Positions 4,117-49,339 of a stretch of DNA of 57,774 nucleotides are shown here, in pieces. The stretch covers positions 1 to 57,774 of the forward strand of contig CAISDV010000185.1 of NCBI GenBank assembly GCA_903884185.1. The letters are read 5' to 3'. Position 1 is the stretch's first letter, and every line of letters starts with the position of its first letter. A model generated the notes under the pieces. It made no database searches, was not told where the DNA came from, and saw only the letters and a list, made by a program, of their open reading frames with translations. Both the position numbers and the translations under genes were made by a program. Source of the DNA: an uncultured Chitinophagaceae bacterium (GTDB taxonomy: Bacteria > Bacteroidota > Bacteroidia > Chitinophagales > Chitinophagaceae).

Positions 4117-4584
4117 ATGAACAATGAAAAACTTCAGTTCCTGGAAACAGGGCTGGTGCAACGTTTACAAGGGCTTGATGCGGATGCCAAAGGCAAGTGG
4201 GGTTTGATGAATGGGCAACAAATGACAGAACATGTGACCGGATTTTTCAAAGTCTCTTCGGGTAGACTGAAATTTCCTTTGATTACTCCTGAAGAGCATC
4301 TTCCCAAATTCAAGGAATTTTTATGGAGCGATAAAGAATTCAGGGAGAATACAAAAGCTCCTTTGGAAATTGTTCCCGAACATCCCTTGCCACCACGTAA
4401 CGCCACTATGCAGCAGTCGGTGGAAGAATTAGGGGCTGAGGTAAAAGCTTTCACTGATCATTTCACTAACGGCACAGCCACCAAAACATTGCATCCTGTT
4501 TTTGGTGAACTGGATTTTGATGAATGGGTACAATTGCATCACAAACATGTAACACATCATCTAAAGCAGTTTGGGTTGTTGTAG
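4117..4584 (+). CDS. DUF1569 (DinB-like) protein
   Basis: A 155-residue protein with the DinB/DUF1569 four-helix look. An early MNGQQMTEH holds a conserved His, and the C-terminal segment LDFDEWVQLHHKHVTHHLKQFG closes the family with several His residues that may bind a metal. No signal peptide is seen. The biochemical role of DUF1569 is not known. Its position directly upstream of paaZ on the same strand suggests possible co-transcription, but a strong palindrome between the two could end transcription. The family assignment rests on recalled motifs. Confidence 0.75.
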   Translation: MNNEKLQFLETGLVQRLQGLDADAKGKWGLMNGQQMTEHVTGFFKVSSGRLKFPLITPEEHLPKFKEFLWSDKEFRENTKAPLEIVPEHPLPPRNATMQQSVEELGAEVKAFTDHFTNGTATKTLHPVFGELDFDEWVQLHHKHVTHHLKQFGLL

Positions 4585-4585
4585 T

Positions 4586-4618
4586 AAACCCCGAGGGATT
4601 TTAAATCCCTCGGGGTTT
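4586..4618. repeat. 33-nt near-perfect palindrome, possible terminator
   Basis: Two arms around a central TTTTAAA core are almost exactly complementary (AACCCCGAGGGATTT against its mirror). It begins 2 bases after the stop of the DUF1569 gene and 35 bases before paaZ. It could work as a bidirectional terminator. The core resembles the palindromes inside birA at 48541-48620 (GGRTTTTAAAYCC), so it may belong to the same spread-out repeat family. Confidence 0.7.
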
Positions 4619-4652
4619 AGGTTGCCAACCTACCAATCGTTAGTTTTGTATC

Positions 4653-6704
4653 ATGGCGAAACTTGAAAATTATATCCTTGGTAAATGGATCAATGGTGAT
4701 GGGGAAGGCCAGGCATTATTCAATGCTGTTACCGGCGCTAGCATTGCACAGGCATCTACCAAAGGGCTTGATTTTGCTGCTGTAACAGAATATGCACGTA
4801 AGAAAGGCGGCCCTGCGCTTCGCAAAATGAGTTTTCAGCAAAGGGGGTTGATGCTGCGGGCACTCGCCATTCACCTGCGCGAACATTTAGACGAATTTTA
4901 TAGGGTGAGTTACCAGACCGGCGCTACTAAAGCCGATAGCTGGGTAGATATTGAAGGTGGTATTGGTAATTTATTTGCGAATGCATCTTTACGAAGAAAA
5001 TTTCCTGATGAACCTTTTTGCCTGGATGGCGACAGCATTCCTTTGAGCAAGGGCGGCAGCTTTATGGGCCATCATTTGCTCGTTCCCAAAGAAGGTGTTG
5101 CCATACATATTAATGCATTTAATTTTCCTGTCTGGGGAATGCTGGAAAAAATTGCCGTGAATTTACTGGCGGGTGTTCCTGCTATTGTTAAACCAGCTAC
5201 GGTTACTTCTTATCTCGCTGAATCTGTTGTGAAAAAAATTGTAGCATCGGGAATATTGCCTGATGGTGCATTGCAACTGATCTGTGGTAATGCAGGCAAT
5301 TTACTGGAACAGGTTACCTCGCAGGATGTGATCACCTTCACCGGATCGGCATCTACGGGATTGATGCTAAAGAACAGCAAAAAAATAATGGAAGAAAATG
5401 TTCCATTTAACCTGGAAGCAGATTCATTGAACTGTATTGTTTTGGGCGAGGATATTACACCTGCCATGCCTGAGTGGGATATTTTTATTAAAGAAGTACG
5501 CAGGGAAATGACCACTAAATGCGGGCAGAAATGTACTGCCATCAGAAGAATATTTGTTCCACAGAATAAGCTCGAAGATGTACAACTAGCGCTGGGCAAG
5601 GCTTTGGCGCAGACCACGATTGGCAATCCGCTGAATGAAAAAGTAAGGATGGGTTCCCTGGCGGGATTAGGACAAAGAGAAGAAGTGATGGCACAGGTAC
5701 AAAAATTATTAGCTTCTTCACAAGTGATATATGGTTCATTGGATAGTGTGGAACTGATTGATGCTGATGCAGTGAAAGGTGCATTTATTAGCCCGCTTTT
5801 ATTATTGAATGAAGATCCTTTCCACGCAAAAGCAGTGCATGAAGTAGAAGCATTTGGCCCGGTGGCAACACTGATGCATTATGGTTCAATAGATGAAGCC
5901 ATCGAATTAGCGAAGATGGGCAAAGGATCTTTGGTGAGTACGGTGGTTACTGCAGACAGATCAATAGCTAAACAATATGTATTGGGTGCGGGCGCTTATC
6001 ATGGCCGCATCCTTGTTCTCAATAATGAATGTGCGAAAGAAAGTACAGGGCATGGTTCCCCATTGCCGTTGCTGGTTCATGGTGGTCCGGGCCGTGCAGG
6101 TGGTGGCGAAGAAATGGGCGGTATTCGCGGAGTAAAACACTATATGCAGCGAGTGGCAATACAAGGCTCACCGGATATGATCACAGCCATCACTAATAAT
6201 TACCAGCCCGGTGCAAAAGGAAAAGAAGATACTATTCATCCGTTCAGAAAATATTTTGAAGAGATACAGGTAGGCGATACTTTGATCACGGGCACACGCT
6301 CTATCACGCAAAAAGACATTGATAGTTTTGCTGATTTGAGTGGCGATCATTTTTATGCGCATACCGATCCCAATTCGCTTGAAGGCACCGTCTTTACAGG
6401 CATTGTAGCACATGGCTATTTTATTTTAAGCGCTGCGGCCGGATTGTTTGTTGATGGAAAAGAGAAAGGCCCGGTGTTATTGAATTATGGTATTGATGAA
6501 TTGCGGTTTACCAAACCGGTGTATCCCGGCGCTACGATACAGGTGAAATTTACCTGTAAAGAAAAGATCAGCCAGCAAAAAAAAGAGGATACGGATATTG
6601 CAAAAGGAATTGTGAAATGGTATGTTGAGATATCAGACGAAACAAAAGAACTGGTGGGTGTGGCAACGATCCTTACCATGGTAAAAATGAAAAATCAAAA
6701 CTGA
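4653..6704 (+). CDS. paaZ: PaaZ: aldehyde dehydrogenase plus MaoC-type hydratase
   Basis: PaaZ opens the oxepin-CoA ring in aerobic phenylacetate degradation and oxidises the resulting aldehyde. The 683-residue protein has an N-terminal aldehyde dehydrogenase domain (about 1-515) with Glu255 in FNLEAD and nucleophile Cys294 in GQKCTA. A C-terminal MaoC hot-dog domain (about 530-680) has Asp561 and His566 in DLSGDHFYAH. These positions match the E. coli enzyme within one residue, as I recall it. An enoyl-CoA hydratase follows after one base, pointing to one operon. The other paa genes are not in this window, so the pathway is not proven here. Confidence 0.93.
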   Translation: MAKLENYILGKWINGDGEGQALFNAVTGASIAQASTKGLDFAAVTEYARKKGGPALRKMSFQQRGLMLRALAIHLREHLDEFYRVSYQTGATKADSWVDIEGGIGNLFANASLRRKFPDEPFCLDGDSIPLSKGGSFMGHHLLVPKEGVAIHINAFNFPVWGMLEKIAVNLLAGVPAIVKPATVTSYLAESVVKKIVASGILPDGALQLICGNAGNLLEQVTSQDVITFTGSASTGLMLKNSKKIMEENVPFNLEADSLNCIVLGEDITPAMPEWDIFIKEVRREMTTKCGQKCTAIRRIFVPQNKLEDVQLALGKALAQTTIGNPLNEKVRMGSLAGLGQREEVMAQVQKLLASSQVIYGSLDSVELIDADAVKGAFISPLLLLNEDPFHAKAVHEVEAFGPVATLMHYGSIDEAIELAKMGKGSLVSTVVTADRSIAKQYVLGAGAYHGRILVLNNECAKESTGHGSPLPLLVHGGPGRAGGGEEMGGIRGVKHYMQRVAIQGSPDMITAITNNYQPGAKGKEDTIHPFRKYFEEIQVGDTLITGTRSITQKDIDSFADLSGDHFYAHTDPNSLEGTVFTGIVAHGYFILSAAAGLFVDGKEKGPVLLNYGIDELRFTKPVYPGATIQVKFTCKEKISQQKKEDTDIAKGIVKWYVEISDETKELVGVATILTMVKMKNQN

Positions 6705-8132: not shown

Positions 8133-8147
8133 GCTACTTAAAAGGCT

Positions 8148-8224
8148 TACCGCAGAGACGGGGAGGTTCGCAGAGTTAAAGATTTTTTTGCAAAACTTTG
8201 CCGGCCTCAGCGTTCTTTGCGGTT
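8148..8224. repeat. ACCGCAGAG-family imperfect palindrome, copy 1
   Basis: The left end TACCGCAGAGACG and right end CGTTCTTTGCGGT are complementary with mismatches. Inside are CAGAG units on the left and CTC-rich units on the right around an AT-rich middle. A related copy lies at 47181-47263. It sits between two convergent genes (alkA-like and fabG) and could also act as a terminator. Confidence 0.7.
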
Positions 8225-39829: not shown

Positions 39830-40291
39830 ATGGCTGTATTAAAAGAAGGAAGCAAAGCACCGGTATTCAAAGGCATAGACCAGGACGGGAAGCCTGTTTC
39901 CCTAAGCGATTTTAAAGGAAAAAAAGTGATCTTATACTTTTACCCGCACGATGATACGCCTACCTGTACCATACAGGCGTGCAATCTCCGCGATAACTAT
40001 CCTGCACTCATTAAAAAAGGATTTAAAGTGATCGGCATTAGCACCGACACGGTAAAAAGCCATAAAAAATTCGAAGATAAATTTGACCTGCCATTTCCAT
40101 TGATCGCGGATGAGGATAAAAAGATTGTTGGACAATATAATGTATGGGGCGAAAAACAATTCATGGGCCGCACTTTCAATGGGACTTTCCGCACTACATT
40201 TTTGATAGATGAAACAGGCAAGATCAAAAAGATCCTCGATAAACCTGATTCTGCGAATCATACAGCAGAGATACTGGCTGCCTGGAAATAA
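39830..40291 (+). CDS. bcp: Thioredoxin-dependent thiol peroxidase (Bcp/PrxQ)
   Basis: This 153-residue peroxiredoxin reduces hydrogen and organic peroxides. The peroxidatic Cys is in DTPTCTIQAC near 45-54; the second Cys five residues later is the resolving Cys of the alpha2-type PrxQ group. The upstream KVILYFYPHDD and the downstream RTTFLID near 124 are typical. No signal peptide is present. The ATG at 39830 gives the normal family start. It is divergent from carB across a 93-base gap. Confidence 0.94.
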   Translation: MAVLKEGSKAPVFKGIDQDGKPVSLSDFKGKKVILYFYPHDDTPTCTIQACNLRDNYPALIKKGFKVIGISTDTVKSHKKFEDKFDLPFPLIADEDKKIVGQYNVWGEKQFMGRTFNGTFRTTFLIDETGKIKKILDKPDSANHTAEILAAWK

Positions 40292-40330
40292 ATACAATTT
40301 CCTGAAAAAATATTCTGCAAATTCTTTTTT

Positions 40331-41191
40331 ATGAAACGGATATTATTTTTCATTGTGTTGCTTAGCTGCGCGATGGCAAATGCACAGAAGACTGATAAAA
40401 AATTAGAAAAATCTGTGCAGGAATTGCTTGCCGGTTTTCACGGCGATGTAGGTGTGTATGTGCACGACCTGAAAAAAAATAAAACCATTTCTATTGATGC
40501 TGATACTGTTTTCCCAACCGCCAGCATGGTCAAGATACCGATCATGATAGGCGTGATGAGTAAATTGGAAAGAGGCGAACTGCAATACCACCAGGAATTA
40601 ATTTATAAAGATTCATTGTTGTATGCAGGCGTTGATATACTCGGTTCTTTTAAAAACAATGAAAAGATTGAGTTGAGCAAAGTGATGATGCTGATGCTCA
40701 CCATGAGCGATAATACTGCAAGCCTCTGGCTGCAAACGTTGGCTGGTACAGGAACACGCATCAATGAGTTGCAGGATAGTTTGGGTATGAAAGTAACGCG
40801 TGTGAACAGCCGCACGCCGGGAAGAGAAGCGAACAGAACAATGTATGGCTGGGGACAAACATCCCCGCGCGAGATGGCAACACTGATGGAAAAAATTGTA
40901 ACGGGGCTGGTGATCAATAAAACCGCGAGCGAAAAAATGGTGCGATTATTAGGAAGGGATTATTGGGATGAGGAAGCGATCTCGCAAATACCTACCGATG
41001 TTTTTGTAGCAGCCAAGAGCGGCGCAGTAGATGCTACAAGGAATGAAGTGTTGTTTGTAAATGGAAAACATTGTCAGTATATCTTCTGTATTTGCACGAA
41101 AAATAATAAAGACCAATCCTGGAAGGAAAACAATGAGGCCTGGGAGTTGACGAGGAAGTTGTCTAAGTTGTTGTGGAGTTATTATAATTAG
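40331..41191 (+). CDS. Class A beta-lactamase-fold serine hydrolase, exported
   Basis: A 286-residue protein with a signal peptide (MKRILFFIVLLSCAMANAQ). It has the class A motifs: TASMVK near 62-67 with the active Ser and Lys, SDNTAS near 127-132, and KSGAVD near 231-236 in place of KTG. The region of the omega loop (REANRTMYGWG) does not show the usual ExxLN motif, so the deacylating Glu is uncertain. Whether it hydrolyses beta-lactams or is a housekeeping esterase or peptidase cannot be said. It starts 40 bases after bcp on the same strand. Confidence 0.83.
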   Translation: MKRILFFIVLLSCAMANAQKTDKKLEKSVQELLAGFHGDVGVYVHDLKKNKTISIDADTVFPTASMVKIPIMIGVMSKLERGELQYHQELIYKDSLLYAGVDILGSFKNNEKIELSKVMMLMLTMSDNTASLWLQTLAGTGTRINELQDSLGMKVTRVNSRTPGREANRTMYGWGQTSPREMATLMEKIVTGLVINKTASEKMVRLLGRDYWDEEAISQIPTDVFVAAKSGAVDATRNEVLFVNGKHCQYIFCICTKNNKDQSWKENNEAWELTRKLSKLLWSYYN

Positions 41192-41230
41192 TTGCCAGTT
41201 ACTGGTTGCTAGTTTCTGGTTAGGGAGGCC

Positions 41231-41357
41231 GTCATTTCGATTCCGAAGTAGTCGGGACAGAAATCTCTTTTTCTTTTTTGCCACAGAAACACAGAGGCAC
41301 AGAAGAATATGCGATAAATCAAAATTGCCTCTGTGTTTCTGTGTCTCTGTGGCAAAA
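41231..41357 (+). repeat. Composite repeat, copy A
   Basis: Two parts joined. First GTCATTTCGA at 41231-41240 with AAATCTC ending at 41267. Then a long imperfect palindrome at 41277-41357 made of ACACAGAG-like units on the left and CTCTGTG-like units on the right, closed by TTTTGCCACAGA and its complement. The same pair in the same order lies at 41938-42088, on the other side of the GNAT gene. The palindrome reads into the open frame upstream of the GNAT start. Confidence 0.8.
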
Positions 41358-41385
41358 CCTCTTTCCCTTTTTAATCAACAACCGA

Positions 41386-41934
41386 ATGAATTCTCACACA
41401 CTGTCAACCTTACGACTTAATCTAAGAAAGTGGATCGATTCTGATACCCAGCCATTCATTGAAATGAATAAAGATGCCGAGGTAATGAAATATTTTCCTT
41501 CAACATTAACTGAAGCTGAGACCTTGAAAATGATAGAAAGGATCAACCTCGGCTTTGAAAAAAATGGTTTTGGGTTATTTGCTGTTGAAAACAAACTCAC
41601 TAAAGAATTTATTGGCTTCACCGGTTTTGCGATCCCGACATTCGAAGCATTTTTCACACCCTGTGTTGAAATTGGATGGCGGTTGAAGAAGGAATTCTGG
41701 GGACAAGGCTTCGCAACAGAAGCGGCAGCAGCCTGCCTGCAGTATGGGTTTGCTGATTTGGGGTTTGATAAAATTGTATCATTTACTTCTGTTCTCAATA
41801 CCAACTCAGAAAAAGTAATGAAACGGATAGGGATGAAATATGTGGCCGATTTTGATCATCCCAAATTAGGGAAGGATAGTATTCTTTGCAGGCATGTATT
41901 ATATGAAATTTGCAAGAAGGGGGAGTTGACCTAG
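41386..41934 (+). CDS. GNAT family N-acetyltransferase (RimJ/RimL type)
   Basis: A 182-residue acetyltransferase of the RimJ/RimL-like subgroup: TLRLNLRKWIDSD at the N-terminus, FIGFTGFAIP for beta4, VEIGWRLKKEFWGQGFATEAA around 101-121 with the acetyl-CoA loop (G-Q-G-F-A), and SVLNTNSEKVMKRIGM near 140-155. It would acetylate an amine on a protein or small molecule. The ATG at 41386-41388 is chosen because the open frame upstream only translates the repeat. The gene is bracketed by two direct copies of a composite repeat, which suggests it arrived or was rearranged with them. Confidence 0.88.
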   Translation: MNSHTLSTLRLNLRKWIDSDTQPFIEMNKDAEVMKYFPSTLTEAETLKMIERINLGFEKNGFGLFAVENKLTKEFIGFTGFAIPTFEAFFTPCVEIGWRLKKEFWGQGFATEAAAACLQYGFADLGFDKIVSFTSVLNTNSEKVMKRIGMKYVADFDHPKLGKDSILCRHVLYEICKKGELT

Positions 41935-41937
41935 AAC

Positions 41938-42088
41938 GTCATTTCGAATCCCCGAATCAATAAACATTAAATCAGTTAGGTGTTTTTTGAGGGGCGATAA
42001 ATCTCTTTTTTGCCACAGAAACACAGAGACACAGAAAAAGATGCGGGAAATCAAAAATGTCTCTGTGTTTCTGTGCCTCTGTGGCAAA
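41938..42088 (+). repeat. Composite repeat, copy B
   Basis: Same order as copy A: GTCATTTCGA at 41938-41947, AAATCTC ending at 42005, then the ACACAGAG palindrome at 42008-42088. The spacer within the first part is about 30 bases longer than in copy A. The palindrome arms are nearly identical to copy A (TTTTGCCACAGAAACACAGAG). It lies between the convergent GNAT and lspA genes. Confidence 0.8.
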
Positions 42089-42125
42089 CCTCCCTTTGGA
42101 TTGGTTTTTTAACGCAAAAAATTGC

Positions 42126-42635
42126 TTAACTATAACTTTCTTCCCTAATAGTTTTTTTCCTCTGATACGAAGAAATAAGAAATAATATCACCCCAAAAGA
42201 AACAAACACATCTGCAAAATTGAATATGCCTGTGTGAACACTTTTAAGATCAATGAAAATAAAATCCGTCACATGCCTGTCGTGCAGCAACCGGTCGCTG
42301 ATATTCCCCAATCCGCCGGAAATGATCAAAGCCAGTGAAAACAATCTTAGAAAACTCAGGTCCTTTGATCTTTTAATGGTATAAATAAAACCTCCCACAA
42401 GAAGTGCGAGGGGCAATACTCCGAGCAGCACCACGTTTAGCGTTTTTGGCAATGCGTCGCCCAAACTCATTGCGGCACCTGTATTCTCGGCATACATCAG
42501 TTGGATGGTGTTATGTAAATAAGAAACGGGTGCTTTATTCTTCAGGTGTTCTATTGCCATGTCTTTGGTGGCCCTGTCCCAACTGATCAATGCCAGACAG
42601 GCTGCACAGAATAAATAAACGCGTAACTTTTTCAT
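42126..42635 (-). CDS. lspA: Lipoprotein signal peptidase II
   Basis: LspA is the inner-membrane aspartic peptidase that cuts prolipoproteins before the lipidated Cys. The 169-residue protein has four hydrophobic segments and the conserved boxes NTGAAMSLGD near 55-64, GGLGNISDRLLHD near 107-119 and IFNFADVFVSFG near 135-146. The last two hold the catalytic Asp pair. It serves the several lipoproteins coded here, for example the RND adaptor and the thioredoxin lipoprotein. The gene stands alone, divergent from the 42728 gene. Confidence 0.93.
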   Translation of the reverse strand: MKKLRVYLFCAACLALISWDRATKDMAIEHLKNKAPVSYLHNTIQLMYAENTGAAMSLGDALPKTLNVVLLGVLPLALLVGGFIYTIKRSKDLSFLRLFSLALIISGGLGNISDRLLHDRHVTDFIFIDLKSVHTGIFNFADVFVSFGVILFLISSYQRKKTIREESYS

Positions 42636-42727
42636 GGGTAATCATTTAATCTGGGAGACGCATTAAAATTACAGAGAATTTGTAAAAGGACTGTGTAATT
42701 TAGCATTCAAAGTCGTAGGATCAATAA

Positions 42728-43144
42728 ATGAAAAATATAAAGCCACAAAATATTGCAATATTATTTCTTGTAATGGCTGCATTATTTATAATTGTTGTGG
42801 GATCAATTTTTAAAAAAGCACTGATTAAAAATCATAAAGAATCTGTGGCGAAAATAACGGAGGGTTCATATGGAGGGAGGGGACATTCAGGGACGATATC
42901 ACTTATTTTCAAGTTTAATGTAGAGGGTAGAGAAATTGAAGGTAACGCTGCATTTAATTCCAGTGAATTATATTATTCTGATGTAGAGAAATTTATAGTC
43001 GGCAAAACATTTCCTGTTGTCTACAATCCAAACAGCCCCCACAGTAATCATTTACTTATTCGAAAAAAAGATTTTGAACAATTTAATGTTCCTTTTCCAG
43101 ATAGCATGAAATGGGTACTGCAATATTTCAAAAAAGAAGACTAA
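42728..43144 (+). CDS. Hypothetical protein with one N-terminal membrane helix
   Basis: I do not recognise this 138-residue protein. One hydrophobic helix (about 9-29) is followed by a predicted extracytoplasmic beta-rich part. A glycine-rich YGGRGHSG near 49-56 precedes ISLIFKFNVEGREIEG, and VVYNPNSPHSNHLL follows near 97-110. This layout (TM helix, then a small beta domain with YNPxNP) recalls DUF3592-like proteins, but the match is weak. The gene is more AT-rich than its neighbours. It is divergent from lspA and convergent with feoB across a repeat-bearing gap. Confidence 0.65.
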   Translation: MKNIKPQNIAILFLVMAALFIIVVGSIFKKALIKNHKESVAKITEGSYGGRGHSGTISLIFKFNVEGREIEGNAAFNSSELYYSDVEKFIVGKTFPVVYNPNSPHSNHLLIRKKDFEQFNVPFPDSMKWVLQYFKKED

Positions 43145-43193
43145 CTCAATATCTATCGGTACGATTGTTCTCGGAAAAAGTCATGAGCTCGTA

Positions 43194-43261
43194 GAGATTT
43201 CTCACTCGCCTTTGGCGATGTTCGAAATGACGTCCTTACTCCCTTCTCTCCTGGAGAAGGG
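43194..43261. repeat. GTCATTTCGA element, copy C (reversed), and adjacent 21-nt palindrome
   Basis: On the minus strand 43231-43194 reads GTCATTTCGA, a small GCCAAAGGC hairpin, then GAAATCTC, the same ends as the first part of composite copies A and B. Right beside it, 43241-43261 is a palindrome, CCCTTCTC and GAGAAGGG around TCCTG, followed by GTTGGGGATGAGG. The second type of element is familiar from many bacterial genomes. The feoB stop codon lies 13 bases further. Confidence 0.7.
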
Positions 43262-43273
43262 TTGGGGATGAGG

Positions 43274-45388
43274 TCATTGAAACAACCTAAACACCACCCA
43301 ACTCATAATATAAGCCAGCCCGGTCATGTATATAAACTGGAACACAGGCCATTTCCATGTCTTGGTTTCTCTTTTTACCACAGCCAATGTACTCATGCAT
43401 TGCATGGCGAGTACATAAAACACCATTAACGATAAAGCTGCTGGTAGTGTATATACTTTGCTTCCGTCTTCCCAGCGCGAAGCCTGTATTTTCTCTTTGA
43501 GAGATTTATTGTCGTTCTCTTCTACACTGTACAGAGTTGCCATGGTTCCCACAAACACTTCCCTCGCAGCAAAGGAAGTGATGAGTGCAATACCAATTTT
43601 CCAGTCGTACCCAAGAGGCTTGATTGCCGGCTCAATCGCTTTGCCCAAAATGCCAGCATAAGAATTCTGTAATTTCTCAGAAGAGAATTGTCGTTGTAAA
43701 GAATCTTTTTTCTGTGGAAGTTGCTGTTCGAGTAACGCATATTTCTCCTCTGTTTTTTTCATCCGCTCACCCGGGCCGTAAGAACTTAAGAACCACAAGA
43801 GCAAGCTGATCATGATGATGACCCTTCCCGCATCGCGCACAAATATTTTTGCTTTCTCTACCATGGTAATTGCCACATTATTCCAGCGGGGCGCACGGTA
43901 CACAGGTAATTCCAATATGAAAAAACTCTTTTCTTTTATTTTGATGAACCACTTCATCACATAGCTGACAATTAATGCCATGAAGGTTCCCAGCAGGTAC
44001 AGGCACATCATCACCAATCCCTGCAGACTCAGAAAATTAAAATAATATTTGTCTGTGATCACTAAAGAAATGAGGATGGTATAAACAGGTAATCTCGCGC
44101 TGCAACTCATCAGCGGAGTAACAAGAATGGTCAGCAACCTTTCTTTCCTGTTCTCAATATTCCTGGTACTCATAATGGCAGGAACGGCACACGCAAACCC
44201 ACTGATCATCGGCATCACACTCTTGCCGTTGAGCCCAACCTTGCGCATGAGCTTATCACTTAAAAAACTGATACGCGCCATATAGCCAGTGTCTTCCAGT
44301 ATCGTGATCAATCCAAACAATATCATGATCTGCGGTACAAACACAATGATGCCGCTAAACCCCGCTACAAAACCATTAATGAAAAGATCGCTCCACCAGG
44401 CATTTGGTAAATTCCTGGTGAGCCATCCACCCACTCTTGTAAAACTCCACACAATGCCATCCATCGGGAAACGCGCCAACCAGAAAACACTTTGAAACAA
44501 TAAGAACAGAACGGTCAATAAAATAAGGTAACCCCAGGTACGGTGTAATAAAATATCATCCAGTTTATCAGAAAACATTTTCTTCTCATGTGGGTCGGGT
44601 TCCACCACATGTTTCTGCATCAGTTGCTTGATGCGTTGGTAGCGCTGCATGATCTCTTCGGCCTGTGTTTTGGTAGAATTGAACTTTGTTTCTTTTTCTG
44701 CCTTCACTAGTTTAACATGCAGATCTGTAGCGAGTGGAAAATCTTCGTGATTGATGAGATAATGTATGCTTGCATAATCACTCAGTTTCGGGAATAGTTC
44801 TTGTGTTTGTTCAATAGCTGTAGGAGCAAGCGCTTTATTATCAATGAAATCATTTTTCAGTGCAACTTCACCTTGCCTGGCAGTTTGTACAACTGCTTTT
44901 TTCAATTGCGCCAATCCCCTGTTCTTTCTTGGGTTCACAACAACAATAGGCACGCCTAGGTCGGCTTCCAATCCCTTCAAATCAATTTTAATTCCTTTTC
45001 TCGCGGCAATATCATTCATCGTTAAAGCAATGACCACCGGAACTTTCAGGTCAATGATCTGGCTACAGAACAACAGGTTCCTTTTCAGGTTACTGGCATC
45101 TGCTACCAGTACGATCACATCCGCACGGGTATCACGATCGGCATTCATCAATACTTTATATGCCACCCACTCATCTGCACGGCGGGGGTATAAAGAATAA
45201 GTACCGGGAAGGTCTATCAGCCTTGCTTTTAGGCCTTCTTCCAGAAGGATATCGCCTGTTTTTTTATCGACCGTAACGCCCGGAAAATTGCCCACTTTCT
45301 GGTTCAATCCGGTTAAAGCATTGAACAAGGAGGTTTTCCCGCTGTTGGGGTTACCCACGAAGGCAATATGTAAGATACTTTTGGGCAT
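43274..45388 (-). CDS. feoB: Ferrous iron transporter FeoB
   Basis: FeoB imports Fe(II) across the inner membrane. From the ATG at 45386-45388 the product has 704 residues: an N-terminal G domain with G1 GNPNSGKTS at 11-19, G3 DLPGTYSL near 57-64 and G4 TMNDI near 118, a helical GDI-like region to about 245, then a polytopic domain with the Gate motifs (PMISGFACAVPAIMSTR and SCSARLPVYT). The open frame extends 28 codons further up but homologues begin near MPKSILHIAFVGN. No feoA is adjacent, which is unusual; it may be elsewhere. A -7-like box lies upstream. Confidence 0.94.
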   Translation of the reverse strand: MPKSILHIAFVGNPNSGKTSLFNALTGLNQKVGNFPGVTVDKKTGDILLEEGLKARLIDLPGTYSLYPRRADEWVAYKVLMNADRDTRADVIVLVADASNLKRNLLFCSQIIDLKVPVVIALTMNDIAARKGIKIDLKGLEADLGVPIVVVNPRKNRGLAQLKKAVVQTARQGEVALKNDFIDNKALAPTAIEQTQELFPKLSDYASIHYLINHEDFPLATDLHVKLVKAEKETKFNSTKTQAEEIMQRYQRIKQLMQKHVVEPDPHEKKMFSDKLDDILLHRTWGYLILLTVLFLLFQSVFWLARFPMDGIVWSFTRVGGWLTRNLPNAWWSDLFINGFVAGFSGIIVFVPQIMILFGLITILEDTGYMARISFLSDKLMRKVGLNGKSVMPMISGFACAVPAIMSTRNIENRKERLLTILVTPLMSCSARLPVYTILISLVITDKYYFNFLSLQGLVMMCLYLLGTFMALIVSYVMKWFIKIKEKSFFILELPVYRAPRWNNVAITMVEKAKIFVRDAGRVIIMISLLLWFLSSYGPGERMKKTEEKYALLEQQLPQKKDSLQRQFSSEKLQNSYAGILGKAIEPAIKPLGYDWKIGIALITSFAAREVFVGTMATLYSVEENDNKSLKEKIQASRWEDGSKVYTLPAALSLMVFYVLAMQCMSTLAVVKRETKTWKWPVFQFIYMTGLAYIMSWVVFRLFQ

Positions 45389-45403
45389 GTATAACGGGGT
45401 TGA

Positions 45404-45411
45404 CAAAACTA
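45404..45411 (-). promoter_or_regulatory. Possible -7 box for feoB
   Basis: On the minus strand TAGTTTTG fits TAnnTTTG and lies 15 bases before the feoB ATG. A -33 TTG at proper spacing is not clear. I see no Fur-box-like palindrome beside it. Confidence 0.3.
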
Positions 45412-45491
45412 ACTGCGAACATTGGCTATATGTTACGAGGTCGGGAAAAGAATATTTGCAGAAGTATATCAAAGCAGTGCCCGCGCTCGCT

Positions 45492-47170: not shown

Positions 47171-47180
47171 GAAAAAGAAT

Positions 47181-47263
47181 TACCGCAGAGTCGGAGAGGT
47201 TCGCAGAGAAAATTATTTTGGTCAAATCTCCCCGTTCCTCCCCGTCTCAGCGTCTCTCCGGTA
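47181..47263. repeat. ACCGCAGAG-family imperfect palindrome, copy 2
   Basis: The left end TACCGCAGAGTCGGAGAGG and right end CGTCTCTCCGGTA are complementary with mismatches, around an AT-rich middle. Left arm and GGTTCGCAGAG segment match the copy at 8148-8224. It lies between the M28 gene and the IPExxxVDY gene, and the upstream open frame of the latter simply translates it. Confidence 0.7.
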
Positions 47264-48368: not shown

Positions 48369-49232
<864 letters not shown>

Positions 49233-49262
49233 AGAATTGTTACTTTTGGCGAAGATAAACGG

Positions 49263-49339
49263 GATGGGGGATACGGGATGCGGGATTTGTGATAGAAGAT
49301 AAGTGATACGTGATGGGGGATGCGGAATACGAGATGAAA
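49263..49339 (+). repeat. Heptanucleotide tandem array between birA and rsfS (11 units)
   Basis: Eleven consecutive 7-nt units, ten beginning GAT and one AAT, keep perfect register over 77 bases: GATGGGG, GATACGG, GATGCGG, GATTTGT, GATAGAA and so on. Several equal units of the array inside birA, but it lies in the opposite orientation. It fills the divergent intergenic region, ending 47 bases before the rsfS start. It is more degenerate, as expected of older non-coding copies. Confidence 0.85.

Follow-up and report, generated by a model that had tools for sequence, protein, structure and literature searches.

Two similar palindrome composites flank a GNAT acetyltransferase gene in an extra segment of an uncultured Chitinophagaceae genome

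The window, as the whole stretch of 57,774 nucleotides analysed is called here, is contig C185 of a 2.95-Mb draft genome (188 contigs) of an uncultured Chitinophagaceae bacterium. In it, an acetyltransferase gene of the GNAT type lies between two composite repeats, A and B, each formed by a module M1 and a module M2, inside an extra segment located between a class A beta-lactamase-like (bla-like) gene and a convergent FeoB-like gene (Table 1). The GNAT protein matches Pfam Acetyltransf_3 with 119.4 bits (cut-off 25.4; E 2.4e-34), and no NCBIfam model scored above its cut-off. Its start is likely the ATG at 41386, the listed open frame, from a TTG at 41278, extending back through the M2 hairpin of composite A. 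Regarding its companions in the segment, the DUF3592 gene has a G+C content of 31.7%, against 41.7% for the window, and the lspA-like gene, used as a query, is the sole match in its own genome and found matches in 7 of 39 genomes. A known structured RNA was considered for positions 40000-43500 and rejected, given that no Rfam match reached its gathering score (the best had 35.7 bits, with 58 required) and that the sub-threshold matches were mostly to eukaryotic microRNA families.

Table 1. Features of the locus and M2 palindromes that enclose a gene (positions are those of the window unless another contig is named)
Feature	Position	Strand	Description
Extra segment	41192..43273	.	2,082 bp, from bla-like gene to FeoB; holds the GNAT, lspA-like and DUF3592 genes
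Left neighbour, class A beta-lactamase-like gene	40331..41191	+	Below the NCBIfam cut-off for class A beta-lactamase; present in related loci
Composite A	41230-41357		M1 then M2, left of the GNAT gene
Composite A, module M1	41230..41267	+	CGTC tag, ATTTC/GAAAT outer stem, short inner hairpin TTCCGAAGTAGTCGGGA, tail CTC
Composite A, module M2	41276..41357	.	82-nt palindrome, each arm made of three CACAGANN units
GNAT acetyltransferase gene	41386..41934	+	182 aa, intact
Composite B	41937-42089		M1 then M2, right of the GNAT gene; same order and direction as A
Composite B, module M1	41937..42005	+	Long inner part unlike that of A; starts 2 nt past the GNAT stop codon
Composite B, module M2	42008..42089	.	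From repeat and half-site searches and hairpin fold
lspA-like signal peptidase II gene	42126..42635	-	Pfam Peptidase_A8; TIGR00077 above cut-off; inside extra segment
DUF3592 gene	42728..43144	+	Pfam; inside extra segment
Third M1 copy	43194..43232	-	Inverted, close to the right edge of the extra segment
Right neighbour, FeoB-like gene	43274..45472	-	Named by eye from the sequence; convergent with the bla-like gene
Loaded M2 (L314)	C138 ~4428-5335		273-aa gene, between tadA-like and SOD-like genes
Loaded M2 (L169)	C171 63230-63833		172-aa gene, arms complementary at 26/26 positions
Loaded M2 (L317)	C171 ~73867-74703		209-aa gene, M1 behind the left arm

That the GNAT gene is bracketed by two direct composite repeats had been proposed in the sequence-only reading, and this was borne out, with composite A starting at 41230 and not at 41231. 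The core of the arrangement is a direct repeat of 85 nt (D4; 41272-41356 and 42004-42088, spacing 732 nt), whose copies are identical at 77 positions (91%) and differ at 8, the longest identical run being 25 nt. The accompanying claim that both composites contain the same two modules in the same order and direction holds for the order, the direction and M2; the M1 copies, 38 nt long in A and 69 nt long in B, are alike at their ends only, and their inner parts differ.

Both modules belong to families that extend over the whole genome. M1 has the layout CGTCATTTCGA ... AAATCTC, and in the composites a T-rich stretch separates it from M2. Exact CGTCATTTCGA sites number 24 genome-wide, against 0 for the reversed control, and since the search itself required the CGTC tag, M1 variants are not included in this count. 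All 24 sites have an AAATCT[CT] end within 73 nt, which defines elements of 32-73 nt with a 5-bp outer stem, a variable inner part and a tail that reads CTC in 11 cases and CTT in 13. Most M1 elements are single, and at 5 of the 24 sites an inverted second M1 end follows, making three head-to-head dimers. In the window alone, the short CGTC pattern (at most 1 mismatch) occurs 3 times, a number reached in 9 of 100 shuffles and hence not beyond chance, and the M1 copies of A and B fold no better than shuffled sequences (z -0.9 and -1.2, respectively). When M1 was searched with a strict pattern that allowed short inner parts only, 16 of 195 genomes, its own included, gave a match.

M2 stands out within the window as well as genome-wide: its half-site (at most 3 mismatches) matches the window 7 times, where shuffles average 0.10, and the genome 142 times, against 18 for the reversed control. 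At least 57 M2 elements were collected by hand from the matches listed, which for the half-site were the first 100 places. A strict full-palindrome pattern has 37 matches in this genome, at times more than one per element, and among 194 further genomes from the family only 5 have any (1 to 3 matches each). The predicted hairpin is strong in both composites (z -7.2 in A and -6.4 in B). M2 lies mostly between genes: a simple ORF caller, applied to the 33 copies whose two arms both fall within the fetched stretches, placed 30 in intergenic DNA (23 with tandem, 5 with convergent and 2 with divergent neighbouring ORFs) and 2 inside an ORF (that of composite A, because of a false upstream start, and one on C122), and left 1 unassigned. 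Promoter and terminator scans remained at chance level and lent no support to a role in transcription. No target-site duplication was detected at 19 perfect-ended copies, whose flanks were no more similar to each other than shuffled pairs for k 3 to 8. Literature searches with repeat letters (GCCACAGAG, GTCATTTCGA, CACAGAGGCACAGA, CACAGAGACACAGAG and CGCAAAGGCGCAAAG) showed no paper on such repeats among those listed, as judged by title, and, going by these searches alone, M2 may be undescribed so far.

Some M2 copies show additional features. G+C-rich short hairpins of the TCCCGAAGTTTCGGGA or CCCGCCCGGC...GGACGGG types are found inside M2 arms (e.g., L027, L032, L034, L039, L041, C138 and C157), by eye often at the same spot, between the first and the second 8-nt unit. 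Two hybrid palindromes, at C90:56459-56536 (L323) and C76:429-504 (L324), have one arm of a CGCAAAG-type family and the other of M2. The window also hosts a third dispersed repeat family (repeat D8; 8140-8186 and 47173-47219) of ACCGCAGAG...GTTCGCAGAG units, whose near-8-nt length gives it a build like that of M2 and which has more copies in the genome by eye, and two runs of ATCCCGCATCCCGTA-type short repeats (I1, 48778-48839; I2, 49260-49314) that face each other across ~420 nt.

Are composites A and B copies of each other? Their M2 modules are mutual best matches at 89.2%, tied second among the 528 pairs that 33 copies allow. When nine full-length copies were compared, the A-B pair matched at 20 of 26 ungapped loop positions, and none of the remaining 35 pairs at more than 18. 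The junction is distinctive as well: of the 6 places in the genome where AAATCT is followed by an M2 start within 30 nt, only A and B have an exact M1 site, the other 4 lacking one; such junctions were expected 0.014 times at random and 0.13 times assuming 11% non-coding DNA, using 24 M1 sites and 57 M2 elements, the latter a lower bound. From the mutual best match it follows that, on sequence similarity, one composite probably arose by local copying of the other. M1 would have been altered afterwards, since the unlike M1 cores do not fit a plain duplication of the entire composite unless a change came later. The 8 differing positions in 85 also make a recent exchange between A and B unlikely. 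Similarity between neighbouring M2 copies was rejected as a general rule, since it fits only half of the four M2 pairs found within 4 kb: A-B and an inverted pair on C130 are unusually alike, and the other two rank 223 and 516 of 528. An alternative is that M1 and M2, by some mutual liking, were inserted side by side independently on two occasions and came to flank one gene by chance. C53 and C171 do have the two modules as neighbours in a different order, the M1 cores of the two composites are unlike, and three M2 pairs are spaced by no more than 800 nt, against an expectation of 0.9 (P 0.06), from which close M2 pairs do not appear to be rare. Nevertheless, the junction, order and direction are identical in A and B and recur at no other exact M1 site, and the two M2 modules are each other's best match, which leaves such a coincidence quite unlikely.

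The surroundings were compared with related loci, found by searching an alignment of nine bla homologues over GTDB genomes and keeping the best 80 of at least 573 (mostly Chitinophagaceae, by record titles). FeoB lies convergently downstream of the bla-like gene in 42 of these 80; the gap between them does not exceed 60 nt in 25 or 300 nt in 28, and is wider than 300 nt in 14; the other 38 have no FeoB in the stretch, some stretches ending soon after bla. The site is empty in relatives: none of the GNAT, lspA and DUF3592 genes was found at any of the 80 loci (E 1e-6), and three of them (L213, L214 and L217) keep the order carB-bcp-bla-FeoB-M28 (carB, FeoB and M28 named by eye) with a gap of ~10 nt, against the 2,082 bp found here. 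Judged by these sequences, the GNAT gene is a newcomer at the bla-FeoB junction. Neither M1 nor M2 occurs between bla and FeoB in the 42 junctions, and the 80 loci pooled contain 2 M2 and 3 M1 matches. Other genes, varying by relative, occupy the junction at L223, L230, L235, L236, L260, L272, L218, L229, L232 and L237, and several of the wide junctions (>300 nt) carry, by eye, regulators, an ATPase and hydrolases. Since different genes are found there across relatives, the junction looks like a variable insertion spot and, as they come with neither M1 nor M2, one that gains genes without these repeats.

The order of genes on both sides also bears on whether the repeats, in a draft of 188 contigs, forced a false join. 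Some M2 copies do lie at or near contig ends (e.g., on C53 and C171), although here relatives show the same adjacency of bcp and bla on the left and of FeoB and the gene after it on the right, and the 8 differences between A and B are enough to distinguish the copies. An assembly artefact is thus very unlikely.

Homologues of the GNAT gene (E 1e-30) are patchy in the family, with 48 of 394 genomes carrying one, its own genome counted, and 431 of 72,556 plasmid records match it, none at 60% identity or more. In other genomes, M2 was absent from all 29 GNAT loci examined (up to 1.5 kb a side), none of these lay near bla, FeoB or lspA, and only one (L211) had an M1-like 11-mer, ~50 nt downstream of the gene. 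These data have to be weighed against the idea that composite, GNAT gene and composite moved as a block, or that a circle with one composite and the gene recombined into a resident composite, in which case the repeats may still delete or amplify the gene. The direct repeats with their identical run, the patchiness of the gene, its absence from the site in all 80 relatives and the M1-like site at L211 would all agree with it. However, the extra segment holds two more genes and reaches well beyond A-GNAT-B, which disfavours a gene carried by the repeats; in the relatives, the composite is missing along with the GNAT gene, so that no site with a single composite is seen; A and B have diverged by 9%; and the GNAT loci of other genomes are free of M2. 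This makes a mobile GNAT unit unlikely. In the sequence-only reading, the flanking copies were taken as a possible mark of a unit that moved as a whole, which finds no support in 2.08 kb of extra DNA with three genes and 29 of 29 GNAT loci elsewhere without M2. It had also suggested looking for strains with a single composite and no GNAT gene, or with tandem duplications, and neither was seen among the best 80 of at least 573 related loci. Conservation of the gene here in relatives devoid of the repeats, which it had named as evidence against itself, was not found either, since the gene is absent from all 80. Neither excision nor amplification nor movement as a block was seen, and that the repeats excise or amplify the GNAT gene, or have carried it, is unproven.

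Elsewhere in the genome, three M2 palindromes hold one whole ORF between their arms, one on C138 and two on C171. The arms are complementary at 18 of 23 positions on C138, and at 14 of 14 for the inner arm compared on C171. The enclosed proteins are unlike one another in the searches made, start by eye like lipoproteins or secreted proteins, and have no Pfam match and, apart from one weak match, no NCBIfam match above cut-off. The gene enclosed on C138 is missing beside the tadA-like gene in all 29 further loci retrieved, in 12 of which the SOD gene comes after the tadA-like gene (with a gap of 100 to 155 nt in four, a larger one in seven and another arrangement in one). Pairs of distant half-sites face inward at five spacings and outward at three (one repeated value merged), numbers from which direction alone shows nothing; by eye, the inward pairs include one chance half-site inside a gene and one two-element case, and one outward pair involves another repeat family. 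Few as these cases are, the three loaded palindromes would fit M2-ended gene cassettes. A bolder proposal would see the M2 arms as the ends of a cassette without transposase, mobile in hairpin form and carrying its gene in the loop, the short palindromes as its emptied remains and the GNAT segment as built where such cassettes came and went; we regard it as improbable.

M2 can be compared with several known systems. MITEs and mobile insertion cassettes are passenger elements without a transposase of their own, and M2 is like them in its short inverted repeats, its lack of a transposase and the three passenger genes. It is unlike them in that no target-site duplication was found in 19 copies and no parent transposon in a search for Y1 genes, and a MITE of a DDE transposon was rejected on the missing duplication. 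Integrons provide another possible parallel, with A and B as attC-like sites around a GNAT cassette: here too a gene lies between two like-directed palindromes, and GNAT genes are a common cargo of integron cassettes. Nonetheless, attC sites have the core sites GTTRRRY and RYYYAAC at their ends, whereas here these are not at the palindrome ends, A has neither, B has one of each with GTTRRRY inside M1, and GTTRRRY occurs in 1 of 33 M2 copies. An integron-like cassette is therefore extremely unlikely.

Regarding the enzymes that could act on such palindromes, the statement in the sequence-only reading that no transposase lies in the window stands for the Y1 type, and also for the 14 of 48 ORFs of at least 80 aa that were scanned with Pfam. 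The genome has five Y1-domain genes (C109:8313-8657, C140:21457-21801, C139:10313-10657, C37:12735-13079 and C80:4252-4467), none of them in the window. By eye, each has its own short palindromes nearby, four of the proteins look IS200-like, and the one on C80, with its NHLH and YTHNNP motifs, resembles RAYT subclass 2.6 as tabulated in PMC6006769. No M2 was found beside any of the five (~1.5 kb a side, one stretch shortened by a contig end), and in the same stretches no good M1 either, M1 appearing only as three-mismatch matches. A linked RAYT as the enzyme for M1 and M2 was rejected, given that other repeats, and neither of these, flank the C80 gene. For the RAYT/TnpA-REP subclass 2.6 of Bacteroidetes, the available text of PMC6006769 describes ‘atypical’ flanking structures; this genome is similar in having the C80 protein together with scattered palindromes, and differs in the repeats that flank the gene.

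The closest relatives of M1 in structure appear to be the CGTC-tagged REPs. In the available text of Di Nocera, De Gregorio and Rocco (2013; PMC3733652), these have a stem of 8-9 bp with AT as first and second pairs, a loop of 4-5 and a tail that is mostly CCA, form mostly head-to-head dimers, come without a transposase alongside, can be embedded in other palindromes and include Bacteroidetes and G. forsetii among their carriers. Compared with that description, M1 shares the CGTC tag, the stem opening with AT paired to AT and the lack of an adjoining transposase gene, but differs in its 5-bp outer stem, its variable inner part and its CTC or CTT tails in place of CCA; head-to-head dimers occur in M1 too, although most of its elements are single; M2, unlike them, has no such tag.

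Taken together, we consider it moderately probable that A and B are linked copies of an M1/M2 composite, passengers in an accessory segment that were duplicated locally, and not the ends of an active GNAT unit. M1 and M2 would be dispersed REP-like palindrome families that multiplied in the lineage, and the accessory segment would have entered or grown where the bla-like gene and FeoB meet end to end. One composite would most likely have arisen as a nearby copy of the other, the M1 cores changing later. The palindromes would be passengers located mostly at gene ends, which probably form hairpins at mRNA 3' ends and are probably spread in trans by a hairpin-recognising enzyme. Counting against this picture, no enzyme is linked to M1 or M2, the promoter and terminator scans lend no support to a role in transcription, and M1 alone folds no better than shuffles.

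For the GNAT gene itself the result is a modest one, an accessory gene in a variable junction. Regarding the palindromes, the available text of PMC3733652 presents the CGTC type as lacking a dedicated transposase. In this genome, one palindrome family has been amplified to levels far beyond those in the 194 sampled relatives. This family, the place where two families are joined and apparently co-copied, and the three palindromes that hold a gene would make the spread of such repeats testable.
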